DNA of 64,000 nt from Nostoc linckia FACHB-104 (GTDB lineage: Bacteria; Cyanobacteriota; Cyanobacteriia; Cyanobacteriales; Nostocaceae), in contig NZ_JACJQJ010000005.1 in the NCBI RefSeq assembly GCF_014696615.1, forward strand, positions 124,001-188,000, in the 5' to 3' direction. Shown here in pieces: positions 46,545-64,000 of this stretch (its first letter is position 1; each line of letters starts with the position of its first letter). A program made the position numbers and the translations under genes. Under the pieces are notes generated by a model. That model made no database searches. It was not told where the DNA came from and was given only the letters and a program-made list of their open reading frames with translations.

Positions 46545-49301
46545 ATGTATCTCAGCTGGAAATATATTTCAACGGTTACGGCGATTTTGCTGGCGCTATG
46601 TTTGCCTGTATCAGAAATTATTATCGGCACAAAGAGTGCATTAGCGCAGACATCACCAAACTCTAAAGTAGAAGCCAATACGCTTTCCCAAGAGGCGGGG
46701 AAGTTATTACGTCAAGGAAAATTTTTAGAAGCATTGGAGTTATTGAAAAAAGCCTTAGCGATTCGCCAAAGTATCAAAGATAGAATGGGTGAGAGTTTTT
46801 CTCTCATTAGTATTGGTAAAGTTTATAGCAAAATTGGACAGTATCCCCAGGCTATAACAGCTTATCAACAAGCTTTGGCAATTCGTAGAGAAATTGGTGC
46901 GAAAGCAGGTGAAGTTGATGTGCTTTATAAAATTGCCGAGGTTTATGACAAAATTGGGCAGTATCCCCAAGCGTTGGAATACTATCAACAAGCATTAAAC
47001 ATTGCTAAAACGGTTGGCTCTCGCACTGCAGAAAGCGATACTCTAAATGGGATAGGTTCTGCTTACAGAAGTGTAGGGCAATATGCTAAAGCTTTAGACT
47101 ATCATCAACAAGCTTTAACTATTGCTAGAAAAACTAACGACCAAATCGAAGAAGCAGAAAGCTTGAATAAAATTGGCGTAGTTTACCGACATTTAGGTGA
47201 ATATAACAAAGCCTTGGAGTTATATCAGCAAGCATTAGCTATTACTAAAAAAATTGGCGATCGCTTACTTGAAGGTGATACTTTGGGTAACATCGGCGTA
47301 GTGTATGATTATGCTGGTCAGTATGCTCAAGCTTTAAATTATTATCAGCAGGCTTTCAATATTTTTCAACAACTCCGCAATCAGCAGTTAGTAGGAATAA
47401 CGCTAAATAATCTGGGCAGCGTTCATCACAGTCTTGGTAAATATGCGAATGCCTTAGATTTATATCAACAAGCTTTAACTATTACTAGAGAAGGTGGTTC
47501 TCGTACTACCGAGGCTAGTATTTTGGTTAATATGGGGTTACTTTATCGCCATCAAAATGATTATCCTAAAGCTTGGGATGTGTATCAACAAGCTTTAGCA
47601 ATCCAACGGGAAATAGGTGATAAACCAGGAGAAAGTATCACCTTAAGTAACTTAGGGACTTTATTAGAAAGACAGCAAAAACCAGAATTAGCCATTACAT
47701 TCTATAAACAATCTGTAAATGTTACTGAAGATATTCGTCGTTCTATACGTGTTTTACCAAGAAATCTCCAGAAATCATACACTGATAATGTAGCTGGTAA
47801 ATATCGCCGTTTGGCTGATTTATTGCTGCGACAAAATCGCCTAGTGGAAGCACAACAAATACTAGATTTACTCAAAATCCAAGAAGCAGATGAATATCTG
47901 AATCAGGTAAGCGAGAAGCCAAACAACTCTCAGCAGATTGATTTACTTACCGAAGAACAAAAAATCGTTTCTCAGCTACAGACAATCCAAGGTAAAGAAA
48001 TATCATTAGGAAAACAACTTGTAGCCTTAAGACAAACTTGCCAAAATCAATGTGCTACTCCTCAGAAACAGCGTATTGCAGAACTAGAAGCACTGCAACA
48101 GCAAACTCGTCAACAATTTAATACTTTTATTAATAGCACTGATGTTAAATCATTAGTCAGCCAATTAAATGCAACTGCTAAAGAGCAAAATCTGCGCCTT
48201 TCGCATTTGAATAAATTACGCAGTAATCTGCCAAAAGATACTGTTTTACTATATCCTTTGGTTTTAGATGATAGATTAGAACTCATTTTAGTTTCTAATT
48301 ATGCGCCACCAGTACATCGAACTGTCGCAATTAAAAAACAAGAATTAAATCAAAAGATAGCACAATTACGTCAAGCAATAACTCAGCGTGGTATCAATCC
48401 TAAACCATCTGCTAGTCAACTTTATGAATGGTTGATTAAACCTATAGAGTTAGACTTAAAAGAAGCACAAGCGAAAACAATTATTTATGCACCGGATGCA
48501 CAGCTGCGTTATCTGCCTTTATCAGCTTTATATGATGGTCAACAATGGCTAATACAACGCTTTGCTATTTACAATATTACTGCTGCGAGTATTGATGATT
48601 TAAAAACTCAACGCCAAACTAATTTACGTGCTTTAGCAGGTGCATTTAGCCAAGGTAGTTATAGTTTTCAAGTAGGTTCACAAAATTATAACTTTGATGG
48701 TTTGATTTATGCGGGTAAAGAAGTAGAAGTTTTGTCTAGAATTATTCAAAATACTACTAAAGTTTTAGATAAAGATTTTTCTCCCAATGCTATTGTTCCG
48801 AAATTAAATAATTACAATATAGTACATTTAGCAACTCACGCAACATTTACACCAGGAAAACCGGAAGAGTCGTTTATTTTATTTGGTAATGGTGAAAGAG
48901 TTACTTTGCGGGATGTAGAAAATTGGAACCTACCCAATGTAGATTTAATTGTGCTGAGTGCTTGCGAAACCGGAGTTGGTGACAAGTTAGGTAATGGTGA
49001 AGAAATTTTAGGTTTTGGATATCTCATGCAACTAGCAGGTGCAAAAAGTACTGTTGCATCATTATGGGTTGTTGATGATGGTGGTACTCAGGCTTTAATG
49101 AACGAATTTTATGCTGCGTTAAAAAATCCCAGCATTAGTAAATCTCAGGCGATTAGACAAGCACAATTAGCTTTGATAACAGGAAATTTTCAGTTTTTGG
49201 ATAAGGTGAGAAATCAAATTAATACAACAGCAAATACTAGTGTAGATTTTAGCCATCCCTATTACTGGGCACCATTTATTTTAATTGGTAATGGACTGTG
49301 A
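46545..49301 (+). CDS. Exported TPR-CHAT caspase-like protein
   Basis: 918 residues. Signal peptide ~1-35 (LLALCLPVSEIIIG...ALAQ), then nine or so 40-residue TPR_12 repeats (~48-400, consensus IGQYPQALEYYQQALNIA), a coiled coil (~440-560) and a C-terminal CHAT domain. The catalytic dyad is present: His in HLATHATF (near 764) and Cys in LSACETGVGD (near 805). CHAT domains are separase/caspase-like cysteine peptidases; TPRs usually bind the trigger or substrate. Export to the periplasm or outside is inferred from the signal. A second CHAT gene lies at 62-64 kb. Neighbours do not form an obvious operon with it. Confidence 0.92.
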   Translation: MYLSWKYISTVTAILLALCLPVSEIIIGTKSALAQTSPNSKVEANTLSQEAGKLLRQGKFLEALELLKKALAIRQSIKDRMGESFSLISIGKVYSKIGQYPQAITAYQQALAIRREIGAKAGEVDVLYKIAEVYDKIGQYPQALEYYQQALNIAKTVGSRTAESDTLNGIGSAYRSVGQYAKALDYHQQALTIARKTNDQIEEAESLNKIGVVYRHLGEYNKALELYQQALAITKKIGDRLLEGDTLGNIGVVYDYAGQYAQALNYYQQAFNIFQQLRNQQLVGITLNNLGSVHHSLGKYANALDLYQQALTITREGGSRTTEASILVNMGLLYRHQNDYPKAWDVYQQALAIQREIGDKPGESITLSNLGTLLERQQKPELAITFYKQSVNVTEDIRRSIRVLPRNLQKSYTDNVAGKYRRLADLLLRQNRLVEAQQILDLLKIQEADEYLNQVSEKPNNSQQIDLLTEEQKIVSQLQTIQGKEISLGKQLVALRQTCQNQCATPQKQRIAELEALQQQTRQQFNTFINSTDVKSLVSQLNATAKEQNLRLSHLNKLRSNLPKDTVLLYPLVLDDRLELILVSNYAPPVHRTVAIKKQELNQKIAQLRQAITQRGINPKPSASQLYEWLIKPIELDLKEAQAKTIIYAPDAQLRYLPLSALYDGQQWLIQRFAIYNITAASIDDLKTQRQTNLRALAGAFSQGSYSFQVGSQNYNFDGLIYAGKEVEVLSRIIQNTTKVLDKDFSPNAIVPKLNNYNIVHLATHATFTPGKPEESFILFGNGERVTLRDVENWNLPNVDLIVLSACETGVGDKLGNGEEILGFGYLMQLAGAKSTVASLWVVDDGGTQALMNEFYAALKNPSISKSQAIRQAQLALITGNFQFLDKVRNQINTTANTSVDFSHPYYWAPFILIGNGL

Positions 49302-60196: not shown

Positions 60197-61927
60197 TTAA
60201 AAGTTGTATCCAAAACTAAAATAAAATCCATGATCTTGGGCATTATTACCGCGATCGCTTAAATCAACTAGGGGAAGTCCGTAGTCCAAGCGACCGGATA
60301 AGTGGGGGATGGGTTCCCAAATTAGCCCTACGCCTAAACCTACTAAGAAGGTTTGATTAGTTAGTTTGTTGGGATTATCAGATTTGTGCCAGACAGCGCC
60401 TACATCAATAAATGGTGCTAATTGCATGGTAGGCTGCCCTGAGTTGCCATAGTCCAAGACAATCCGGTCTTCTAGTGATGCGCGAAAGCCATTGTCGCCA
60501 GAACGGGCATTTTGTCGATAACCCCGCAGAGATTGTCCACCGCCAATAACGAACTGTTGCGAGGGTAGCAAGCTATCAGGGGTAAGTTGCAAGTCTAATT
60601 GGGCAATTAGCAAGTTGTCTTTAGATAATCGCTGTACGCGCTGCAATTGGGTAAGCCAACTGAAAAACTGACCATCTGGGATGGGGTCAGTGTTAGTAGT
60701 ACTATCTAAGATATTTAAGCCGATATTGAATTGCGATCGCAGCGCCCAGGCCCCTTGTAAGTCGCGCTTGAGATAATCTTGTCCAAATTTCAATACTCTT
60801 GTGCGGCTGTTTCCTTCAGCATCGGGGCCAATCCCAAAAGGTGTAGGTGTGTCGTTAAATAAGAATGTTTGACCATCTTGCCAAGCAAAGCCCAAAGATA
60901 AAGCAAATTCCTCACGGGGATTGCGAATTAATGGTTGGCGGTAACTAATTTCGTATAAGTTGGTATCGCTTCTGATGCCAAAAACTTCAAACTCTGGGTC
61001 AGTAACTCTACTGTAACTCGGTGCAACCCGCAGTTGAATGCTACCATTCATGGGATTTACAGGCAGGCGATATCTAAAATCATAGGCATTGGAACCGCCT
61101 GTAGTTGAACGGTAGTAGGAAGCGGTAATTTCATCACCATTGCCTGTGAGATTACGGTTACTAATAAATCCACCAAAACGCTCAGAGCCGACGCTGGGAG
61201 GTGAGTAATTATCTATACCAACATAACCATAAAAGACGGGTGCCTCTTCAACACGCACTGTTAAAATACTTTGCCCTAATTCAGTTCCCTGTTTGAGATA
61301 AGCTTCTACGTTGCTAAATAGCGGATCGACTTTGAGTAAGCGCAGTTGGTCTTCTAATTTATCTTTGCTGAGGGGGGAAACAGTACCCAGTTGTAGCCGA
61401 CTGCGAACATAGCTAGGATTAACTTTTTGAGTTCCTAGTACTTCGATTTTTTCTACCCCACCTTCAATTATCTGAATTTGTACAACGCCGTTAGTAATTG
61501 TCTGCTCGGTGAGAATCGCCCTAGAAGTAATATATCCTCGGTTGAGATACAGTTCAGAAATCTGATCTACAGCCTCCTGGAGTTCCGCTAAAGTTACAGA
61601 ACGACCTTCTAAGGGTTTAGTAATGGTAGCAATTTCTTCGTTGCTGAAAACAGTGCTACCGATAACTTCTATTTTGCGAACCGAAATATTGACAGATGGA
61701 TCTGCTGGTGTAGGTGTTGTGGGTGGCGGGTTAGGTAGAGTCGGCTGCTGTTCATTTGTTGGTAAAGGTTGAGGCGTAGGTGGGGATTGGGGAAAGCGAT
61801 CAATGTTGGGATTGGGTTGAGGAGGTACCTGCACCGGGGCCGTTTGCGCGATCGCAGATAAACTCGTAAATAATGCCAAGCCAGCCAAGAAGACCGACAA
61901 CCAAAACCGATGAAATATAAAATACAT
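60197..61927 (-). CDS. TpsB outer-membrane transporter (ShlB/FhaC/HecB family)
   Basis: 576 residues. Signal peptide (~1-28, ending AIAQ), a Pro/Gln-rich linker, two POTRA domains (ISVRKIEVIGSTVFSNEEI from ~80 and VEKIEVLGTQKVNPSYVRSRL from ~160) and a 16-stranded barrel. The barrel has the conserved loop GGGQSLRGYRQNARSGDNG and a terminal Phe. TpsB exports a single TpsA protein through the outer membrane. The candidate partner is the CHAT protein directly upstream; the 151-base gap suggests one operon. Confidence 0.95.
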   Translation of the reverse strand: MYFIFHRFWLSVFLAGLALFTSLSAIAQTAPVQVPPQPNPNIDRFPQSPPTPQPLPTNEQQPTLPNPPPTTPTPADPSVNISVRKIEVIGSTVFSNEEIATITKPLEGRSVTLAELQEAVDQISELYLNRGYITSRAILTEQTITNGVVQIQIIEGGVEKIEVLGTQKVNPSYVRSRLQLGTVSPLSKDKLEDQLRLLKVDPLFSNVEAYLKQGTELGQSILTVRVEEAPVFYGYVGIDNYSPPSVGSERFGGFISNRNLTGNGDEITASYYRSTTGGSNAYDFRYRLPVNPMNGSIQLRVAPSYSRVTDPEFEVFGIRSDTNLYEISYRQPLIRNPREEFALSLGFAWQDGQTFLFNDTPTPFGIGPDAEGNSRTRVLKFGQDYLKRDLQGAWALRSQFNIGLNILDSTTNTDPIPDGQFFSWLTQLQRVQRLSKDNLLIAQLDLQLTPDSLLPSQQFVIGGGQSLRGYRQNARSGDNGFRASLEDRIVLDYGNSGQPTMQLAPFIDVGAVWHKSDNPNKLTNQTFLVGLGVGLIWEPIPHLSGRLDYGLPLVDLSDRGNNAQDHGFYFSFGYNF

Positions 61928-62078
61928 AAAAATAAATACGTATGAATTTTAAAGGATAAAGGATGAAGTATAAATTACTGCTTATAAAATTGCTAGAAGC
62001 TTTATGAGTGTTGCTCAAATTTAGATGTGTTTTAGTTGATGAGCAACATTTCAGACTTCATACTTTACACTTCAGCCT

Positions 62079-64000
62079 TTACCAAGGGTTACCAATGAGT
62101 GTAAAAGCTGACCAGTAATATGGATGCCGTAATTCTTGGTTACCGAGTTCGACAAGGATGGGTGGTAGAGTCACATTCACATTAGAAGTTTTGAGTTTCC
62201 CGTCTTGCAAGCGGACTTGACCTTTGATCATGGCTATTTGCGCTTGGCGGAGTGCTTCGGCTTTGATGGGGGCTTTTTTTAATTGTTCGTAGAATTCACT
62301 CATTAATCCTAAAGTCCCTTCGTCGGACACGTACCACAAACTCGCTAGTGCTGTCTTTACACCAGCTTGTACAGCAAAACCCGCAAAGCCTAACTCTGCC
62401 TCTTTATCTCCGATCGCAGTTCGACAGGAACTTAAAACCACTAGCTGCACTGGGGGATTGTTCCAACCAAGTTTTCGCAGCTGATCCATTTTCAATTGGC
62501 TATCCCACATCTGAATGTAAGAATTACCGCGATCGCCTGGTTCAAATTCCGCGTGAGTAGCTAGGTGAATAATGCCGAAGGGTTTTTGCTGACGTTGCTT
62601 TTGCAGATTTGTCAAAGTAAAGCTTTCGTTTAAAAAGAAATTACCTTGCCATAACCGGGAAGTAATAGTTACCAATTCTGTGGGAACTGCTGGTAAAGGA
62701 TTTTGGTTGCGGAATTCCGATGCACCCATACCTAAAACTTCCGCTTTTTTGATGTCCACAAATTTGGTGTCAGTCAGGCTGAGACTGGGCATTAAACCGA
62801 CGCTATAGCTTTCTACCAAATACTTTTGTCCATCATAAAGAGCCGCAACAGGAAGCGATCGCAATCCTGCATCCATGATGAATGCAATATTATTAACCTT
62901 GCGTGCTTGCAGTTCAGGTTCTAAGGGTGTAATCAGCCATTCATACAATTTTTTAGCTGGATCTTTATAGCTGTTATTCCGTGCACTCTTGGTAATATCC
63001 TTAATAAAAGTTTGGGCTGTACCTATAACTTGCGATCGCGTCACAGGTAATACCTTACGAATTGGTAAACCTTGGGCAGTCACTATTAGCAATTCCAAGC
63101 GATCGTTTGGCGATGGTTGAATTTTTGCTTTGTTCTGCTTGAGTGTAATCGCAGGTGAAACGCTAGTAGGGATGAAATTGACATATATTAGTGCAGGTTG
63201 AATACCTGTGGCATCACTAATTTGTTGCAGAATATTACGGGCTGTGTTGGGGGCTTCAAGATTAGGTTTAGCTTCTTCTCCCAAGTATTCTTTATACTCA
63301 GTAGTGTATTCTTGCTCAATATTTGCTACAGCAGTATCAAGTACAACTTCTGGTGTGGAATTGATAGTGACTGGTATTTGTGTAGAGGGCGGTTTCTTCA
63401 GAACTTCTGGATTGGGCGTATCAATTGGAACTGTTGGTGTAGTTGGAACTTCAGAAGCAGCATTATTAGTCAAACTGAAGTTGGCGGGTGTAAGTGCGCC
63501 ACTGTTAGCTGTAACTGTGTAATTACCTTCAACTGTATTGGCTGTGACTGGGATACTCACATTACCACTGCTATTAGTCGTGAGGCTGGTATTACCTGTG
63601 AAATTAGCAGTTGCGCCAGTTGTAGGTGCATTGAAGGTAACTGTAGCGTTGGCGATCGCATTACCGTATTGGTCTTGAACTTTAGCTTGCAGCGGATTAA
63701 TAAATCCAGTATTGACGATTGTAGTTTGCGGTGTCCCACCTGTAGCGATAATCGCTGCTGCAATATCTGGGTTATTCGTCAAACTGAAATTAGCGGGTGT
63801 TAGTGTGCCACTATTGGCTGTAACTGCATAGCTACCTGCAACAGTGTTGGCTGTGACTGGGATGCTGACATTCCCACTGCTATCAGTCGTCAGGCTGGTA
63901 TTACCTGTGAAATTAGCAGTTGCGCCTGATGTCGGTGCATTGAAGGTAACTGTGGCGTTGGCGATCGCATTTCCGTATTGGTCTTGTACTTTGGCTTGTA
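62079..64000 (-). CDS. Secreted Ig-repeat protein with C-terminal CHAT peptidase (TpsA-like), partial
   Basis: The frame is open to the right window edge (5' end missing, at least 640 residues). The visible N-terminal part has 103-residue Big/invasin-like Ig repeats (QAKVQDQYGNAIANATVTFNAP ... TPANFSLTNN), nearly identical between copies. A Pro/Thr linker (PTTPTVPIDTPNPEV) and a complete CHAT domain follow, with His in IHLATHAEF (near 62550) and Cys in VLSSCRTAIGD (near 62425). Position directly before a TpsB gene suggests two-partner secretion; the TPS domain would lie outside the window. A caspase-like peptidase on a secreted adhesin-like stalk is the inferred architecture. Confidence 0.88.
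   Translation of the reverse strand, partial: QAKVQDQYGNAIANATVTFNAPTSGATANFTGNTSLTTDSSGNVSIPVTANTVAGSYAVTANSGTLTPANFSLTNNPDIAAAIIATGGTPQTTIVNTGFINPLQAKVQDQYGNAIANATVTFNAPTTGATANFTGNTSLTTNSSGNVSIPVTANTVEGNYTVTANSGALTPANFSLTNNAASEVPTTPTVPIDTPNPEVLKKPPSTQIPVTINSTPEVVLDTAVANIEQEYTTEYKEYLGEEAKPNLEAPNTARNILQQISDATGIQPALIYVNFIPTSVSPAITLKQNKAKIQPSPNDRLELLIVTAQGLPIRKVLPVTRSQVIGTAQTFIKDITKSARNNSYKDPAKKLYEWLITPLEPELQARKVNNIAFIMDAGLRSLPVAALYDGQKYLVESYSVGLMPSLSLTDTKFVDIKKAEVLGMGASEFRNQNPLPAVPTELVTITSRLWQGNFFLNESFTLTNLQKQRQQKPFGIIHLATHAEFEPGDRGNSYIQMWDSQLKMDQLRKLGWNNPPVQLVVLSSCRTAIGDKEAELGFAGFAVQAGVKTALASLWYVSDEGTLGLMSEFYEQLKKAPIKAEALRQAQIAMIKGQVRLQDGKLKTSNVNVTLPPILVELGNQELRHPYYWSAFTLIGNPW
63382..64000 (-). 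repeat. 309-bp tandem repeat encoding Ig-like domains
   Basis: The same sequence returns after 309 bases (for example the segment ending at 63691 and that ending at 64000), coding for 103 residues. Two copies are at least partly visible and are highly similar in DNA, so the array was recently amplified or homogenised and probably continues past the window. Confidence 0.85.

Follow-up and report, generated by a model that had tools for sequence, protein, structure and literature searches.

The 64,000-nucleotide stretch of the Nostoc linckia FACHB-104 genome analysed here (the window; positions 124,001 to 188,000 of contig NZ_JACJQJ010000005.1, below C127) ends within a gene, tpsA, whose predicted product is a two-partner-secretion (TPS) exoprotein with an apparently intact CHAT protease domain (caspase/separase clan) as its C-terminus. 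The protein, TpsA-CHAT, is encoded directly beside its putative outer-membrane transporter, TpsB. Many cyanobacteria have the same arrangement, an indication that TPS export is regularly partnered by proteases of this kind. As to function, we tentatively favor, at a little short of an even chance, an exported protease located at the TpsB pore or the cell surface that most likely cuts its own or a sister TPS exoprotein.

Gene pair and domain layout of TpsA-CHAT

The coordinates of the features are given in Table 1. In the contig sequence (locus L031), tpsA is a single uninterrupted frame of 1923 amino acids (aa) starting from TTG, which rules out a frame artefact at the window edge; the frame of a relative (L235) starts with MMKM, corresponding to aa 27 of TpsA-CHAT. 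The original prediction, made from the window alone, had placed TpsB next to a gene with immunoglobulin (Ig)-like repeats and a C-terminal CHAT with an intact His/Cys dyad, a pairing confirmed by Pfam and by the dyad alignment below. It had also expected a TPS domain past base 64,000, and this was found on the same polypeptide at aa 76-270 (PF05860, 138 bits against a cut-off of 33.5, E-value 6.8e-40). In NCBIfam, the protein matched TIGR01901 (filamentous haemagglutinin N-terminal domain, 81.1 bits) and also a choice-of-anchor Q model. A hydrophobic segment ending in SPFVKAQS lies directly N-terminal to the TPS domain and is signal-like by a home-made heuristic, which makes it a candidate for the Sec signal foreseen at this place. 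Four stretches of the protein matched Big_1 in Pfam, and the Ig array comprised 3.3 copies with 89% matches (Tandem Repeats Finder). The CHAT domain (PF12770 cut-off 24, E-value 1.1e-70) ends 2 aa short of the stop, and with two such E-values in one frame a chance match is not in question. No TPR domain was matched in the fused protein at an E-value of 0.01, and PADLOC gave no match to its listed defence systems. Overall, profile matches and the structural model show a predicted order of signal-like segment, TPS domain, beta-helix and Ig stalk, and extreme C-terminal CHAT with its His/Cys dyad, accompanied by the adjacent TpsB.

The tpsB gene follows on the same strand, 151 bp 3' of the tpsA stop (gene order tpsA, then tpsB), and its product matched POTRA_2 (PF08479, 85.9 bits) and ShlB (PF03865, 99.9 bits). 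Contig C127 (218 kb) contains a single TPS match, that of TpsA-CHAT, so there is no other TpsA in the vicinity; a different TpsA serving this TpsB, the case named at the outset as refuting the pairing, was rejected. Of the features that define a type Vb TpsA, TpsA-CHAT has an N-terminal TPS domain and an adjacent TpsB with POTRA and a ShlB-type barrel, through which it would be secreted.

The residues expected to be catalytic in the CHAT family, here His1766 and Cys1809, occur without exception in an alignment of 65 rows that includes TpsA-CHAT, and likewise in all 61 fused rows of a partly overlapping set. The domain matched the CHAT profile and had the caspase/separase fold of a CHAT protease (clan CD). 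The PDB yielded just two weak sequence relatives with the CHAT profile A3 (E-values 0.094 and 0.15), so a fold search was used. The ratio of nonsynonymous to synonymous substitution rates (dN/dS) was 0.04 for CHAT, consistent with the predicted proteolytic activity, and a degenerate CHAT was ruled out by the intact dyad together with the strong constraint.

Table 1. Coordinates of the TpsB and TpsA-CHAT features (window numbering unless a contig or locus is named)
Feature	Position	Strand	Basis or detail
TpsB transporter, 576 aa	60197..61927	-	POTRA_2 + ShlB/FhaC barrel
TpsA-CHAT exoprotein gene	62079..64000 (in-window part; frame extends to window-equivalent 67850; L031 4080..9851)	-	contig sequence
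Folded C-terminal module, 429 aa: helical cap, N-lobe, catalytic lobe	62082..63368	-	model; mean predicted local distance difference test (pLDDT) 90.1, predicted template modeling score (pTM) 0.92
CHAT caspase-like domain, aa 1630-1921	62088..62963 (C127:186088-186963)	-	PF12770, 238.8 bits
Cys1809 codon, in SSCRTA, expected catalytic Cys	62424..62426	-	alignment
His1766 codon, second H of HLATHAEF, expected catalytic His	62553..62555	-	alignment
Big_1 Ig-like repeats	63463..64000 (array L031 5464-6494 goes on past the window)	-	309-bp (103-aa) unit

Recurrence of CHAT in cis and in trans

A search of other genomes for TPS-CHAT fusions had been proposed, and such fusions were found in many cyanobacteria. 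The hidden Markov models (HMMs) for TPS, CHAT, TpsB, Peptidase_C14 and DUF928 used in the surveys were built from proteins of the N. linckia genome itself. A CHAT-first search of 244 genomes of the phylum with a profile of the two fused N. linckia CHATs, scoring at most 7 candidates per genome, matched 57 genomes at an E-value of 1e-75, N. linckia counted. Fetching 51 of the 56 other matching genomes and nine extra matches chosen for frames longer than 2000 aa gave 60 loci; in seven genomes (G033, G039, G045, G179, G185, G195 and G211) the match with the longer frame was taken and not the best one, and the choice of 16 of the 60 loci for long frames favors fusions. TPS and CHAT shared one frame in 51 of the 60 by HMM and in two more by eye (L126 and L161, whose TPS domains hmmsearch missed), while the genomes represented by their best match only gave 35 of 44 by HMM and two more by eye. 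Another set, limited to the best 79 of 266 relatives with a bias towards this CHAT, was entirely cyanobacterial by record title, with 57 loci fused, 13 cut by the contig start and 9 without TPS, as judged by the best-scoring CHAT frame per locus (in L299 the neighbor of the matched frame). The complete fused frames numbered 111, with some records common to the two sets, and ranged from 950 to 3928 aa; CHAT was at most 6 aa from the C-terminus in 110 of them, and the N-terminus was signal-like by the heuristic in 97.

To counter the bias of the CHAT-first search, a second search started from TPS, with a query (A2) of two fused and two unfused N. linckia TPS rows in 98 genomes. This search listed 60 matches in 26 genomes at an E-value of 1e-40, of which 54 scored above 200 bits, a line that we drew where the scores drop from 213.7 to 150.3, and the matches were joined to CHAT places and to the N. 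linckia map by contig and frame length. Among the 54 close relatives, CHAT was found in the same frame in 41 and in the next frame in three (N. linckia C125, G039:C159 and G076), and two ran into a contig end. This TPS subtype thus usually ends in CHAT, and the search supports the TPS-CHAT link.

Some fused frames carry a further domain. A glycosyltransferase family 2 (GT2) domain precedes the signal segment in five of them according to Pfam (L062 3595-8937 on N. linckia contig C139, L115, L117, L121 and L167), giving the order GT2-signal-TPS-CHAT, and a GT2-like motif occurs in 11 of the 111 complete frames; by eye, what L120 and L124 retain looks like no more than a GT2 remnant. The GT2 part could be a cytoplasmic domain translated together with its secreted partner. 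Plasmid copies of the fusion were considered and rejected: the best annotated plasmid match, from Nostoc sp. NIES-3756, is a CHAT gene of 450 aa and not a fusion, and the top match is an unannotated Kovacikia record.

CHAT genes also lie beside TPS and TpsB genes as separate frames. The N. linckia genome has 81 CHAT and 31 Peptidase_C14 matches; a CHAT lies within 10 kb of 12 of its 22 TPS clusters, and 12 of the 81 CHATs are near TPS versus about 4.4 under uniform placement. Of its nine good TpsB genes (ten ShlB matches minus the weak C150), six lie no more than 5 kb from a CHAT, the one on C3 is accompanied by a Peptidase_C14 gene, and the remaining two (C119 and C160:73922) have neither. 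In a TpsB-first survey of 46 loci from other genomes (47 matches under an E-value of 1e-25 minus G008:C72, with 28 weaker matches outside), CHAT was present at 17 (11 separate, 6 fused) versus none of 20 control windows, which were set at round coordinates in 7 genomes and are not random draws; gene overlaps in this survey depend on a mechanical choice of starts. At the loci with both TPS and TpsB, CHAT occurred in 15 of 22 (the L161 TPS counted by eye).

The original prediction had treated an exported CHAT as an oddity. Its domain layout and gene pair were borne out, but this part was not, since the TPR-CHATs linked to TPS or TpsB mostly begin with an export-signal-like segment. All 11 separate TpsB-linked CHAT proteins of other genomes did so by the heuristic, a test also passed by 29 of 157 frames taken as background and by 35 of 46 TpsB, and at a slightly wider setting the same was seen in 10 of the 11 TPS- or TpsB-linked CHATs of N. 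linckia, and in the unlinked C171 as well. A second CHAT gene of the window (46545..49301, + strand, 918 aa) has a signal-like N-terminus and no TPS match within 10 kb; exported CHATs seem not to be limited to TPS loci.

Several neighborhoods deserve mention. On N. linckia contig C160 (62562-110028), 14 TPS matches form a 47-kb cluster with one TpsB (73922) inside and a signal-bearing TPR-CHAT just past its far end. Genes combining Peptidase_C14 and DUF4384, with twin-arginine-like N-termini by eye, lie directly 5' of TpsB in L065 (1810-4023, C125) and L078 (3052-5229, C3). These two loci raised the idea that Peptidase_C14 might generally accompany TpsB, which was rejected: such a gene was seen at 0 of 46 TpsB loci in other genomes versus 1 of 20 controls (three-sequence HMM). 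DUF928-like and CHASE2-like genes recur beside N. linckia TPS genes in L066, L069, L074, L075, L079 and L080 (by Pfam in L079, L080 and L069).

The descent of the CHAT domains was followed in two trees. An 82-row tree, a quick search with midpoint root and no bootstrap that covered 36 of the 60 fetched loci and took its unlinked rows solely from the 30 best CHATs of N. linckia, grouped the fused with the short CHATs (99), with the separate TPR-CHATs linked to TPS or TpsB as their neighbors; together these make up a group of 61 rows (98), one of them unlinked. In a more careful 33-row tree of the N. linckia CHATs, 11 of the 12 TPS-linked rows fell into one 13-row group (99/98), and of its two other rows one adjoins TpsB. 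The short stand-alone CHATs that group with the fused ones (480-630 aa; L116 6557-8140, L146, L153 and L158) have no TPS and look export-signal-like at the N-terminus by eye.

Comparison with known systems

With type Vb pairs such as filamentous haemagglutinin (FHA)/FhaC and CdiA/CdiB, TpsA-CHAT shares the signal-like segment, the TPS/haemagglutinin N-terminal domain, the beta-helical and repeat stalk and the adjacent POTRA-ShlB TpsB; it differs from them in its caspase-fold C-terminus and in the order tpsA then tpsB. Csx29, the TPR-CHAT of type III-E CRISPR (Craspase), is 12% identical and works with a Cas7-11 partner, whereas the fused protein gave no TPR match and has an export stalk instead. 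Separase and the SAVED-CHAT proteases are cytoplasmic and answer to other regulators, and the gingipains RgpB and Kgp belong to another family with another export route (type IX).

A further likeness is to the caspase-like domains of polymorphic toxins, which also end secreted repeat proteins and which Zhang et al. (2012; PMC3482391) describe as releasing peptidases or C-terminal toxins. In the portion of that text searched (the first 300,000 of 354,187 characters), the word CHAT was not found, and the Tox-Caspase row names type II, VI and VII secretion systems and PVC, not type V. Neither CHAT nor haemagglutinin was found in the text of Asplund-Samuelsson et al. (2012; PMC3501461). No paper that brings CHAT domains together with TPS export or with haemagglutinin terms was found in a literature search that left subscription papers and preprints outside. 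Both halves, TPS export and the CHAT protease, are already known, and their combination may well be present in domain databases.

Possible roles of the exported CHAT

FHA-type TpsA proteins are matured or released by separate proteases, and FhaB, CdiA and similar TpsA proteins can retain their C-terminus in the periplasm. We infer the activity, substrate and final location of CHAT as follows. The TPS domain would pass through TpsB first and the stalk would then be threaded outward, leaving CHAT, the last in order, either where TpsB opens to the periplasm or emerging at the end of the stalk. Because FhaB/CdiA-type C-termini can stay behind, either a surface or a periplasmic location at the pore is possible for the fused CHAT. 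The trans TPR-CHATs, having no TPS domain, would be expected to remain periplasmic, and the fused CHAT, threaded last, could share that location; cis and trans CHATs would then have one task in common there, for which the processing of TPS exoproteins is the simplest explanation. CHAT would be an exported protease dedicated to this pathway and would most likely cleave its own or a sister exoprotein for maturation, release or shedding. With slightly more reserve, we propose that the cyanobacterial exported CHAT may be an old, semi-regular third TPS component, found either as a signal-bearing TPR-CHAT in trans or as a TPS-stalk-CHAT fusion in cis and controlling exoprotein maturation or release.

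Several observations weigh against such a role. At the level of the domain, the dN/dS of CHAT is based on 3 and 4 amino-acid changes, the 64-aa linker preceding it is equally constrained (0.049 and 0), and the dyad is absent (Y/G) in 1 of 11 separate CHAT rows of the alignment and partly absent (S/C) in 1 of 30 N. linckia CHATs. The signal test is home-made, and the CHAT of N. linckia C109 fails it. Moreover, the linkage is incomplete. TpsB was observed in the fetched stretch for just 16 of the 111 fused frames; 8 of the 54 close TPS relatives have no CHAT in or beside the frame, and none of the six weaker TPS matches has one; L011 and L202, both TPS/TpsB-linked, were placed among unlinked CHATs in the 82-row tree. 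CHAT was missing from 29 of the 46 TpsB loci and from 7 of the 22 with both TPS and TpsB, so it is not obligatory for TPS.

The strongest competitor, put forward in the original prediction and in our view unlikely, is that CHAT is an effector, displayed or released by the stalk to cut proteins of neighboring cells or the matrix in a contact-dependent or polymorphic-toxin-like manner. CHAT indeed occupies the C-terminal-most site, where TPS effectors such as that of CdiA reside, the number of Ig repeats varies among near relatives with CHAT about 99% identical, and a toxin role has been proposed for some C-terminal caspase-like domains by Zhang et al. (2012). Polymorphic toxins, however, swap their tips, whereas a single C-terminus predominates here (the 41 of 54 above, with the C-termini of the 8 CHAT-less frames outside this comparison). 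Nor was there a recurrent immunity-like neighbor among frames of 90-999 aa at 62 loci, where the families seen in at least 6 loci were TpsB (16), an ABC-ATPase group (12), CHAT/TPR paralogues (11) and a DUF928-like group (6), and the trans TPR-CHATs, without a TPS domain, should not pass TpsB. Still less probable is an exported sensor-protease, whose stalk or partner would sense a surface event and whose CHAT would cut a periplasmic or membrane signaling protein, evoking a stress or cell-death response; the sole recurrent signaling-type family noticed beside fused loci was a CHASE2-like group, at 5 of 62. Least likely of all, CHAT could be retained as a folded domain that caps or anchors the protein and so stalls its secretion, as its nearly fixed C-terminal position would allow, but the invariant dyad speaks against a role without proteolysis.

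The familiar role of CHAT proteases is that of executioners in the cytoplasm, in the Craspase, separase and SAVED pathways. If apparently intact CHATs are tied to outer-membrane export in many cyanobacteria, as proposed here, caspase-fold proteolysis would move to the cell envelope and cyanobacterial exoproteins would gain a possible processing enzyme. This would also bear on the role of the caspase-fold genes that are abundant in these genomes, as they are in N. linckia.

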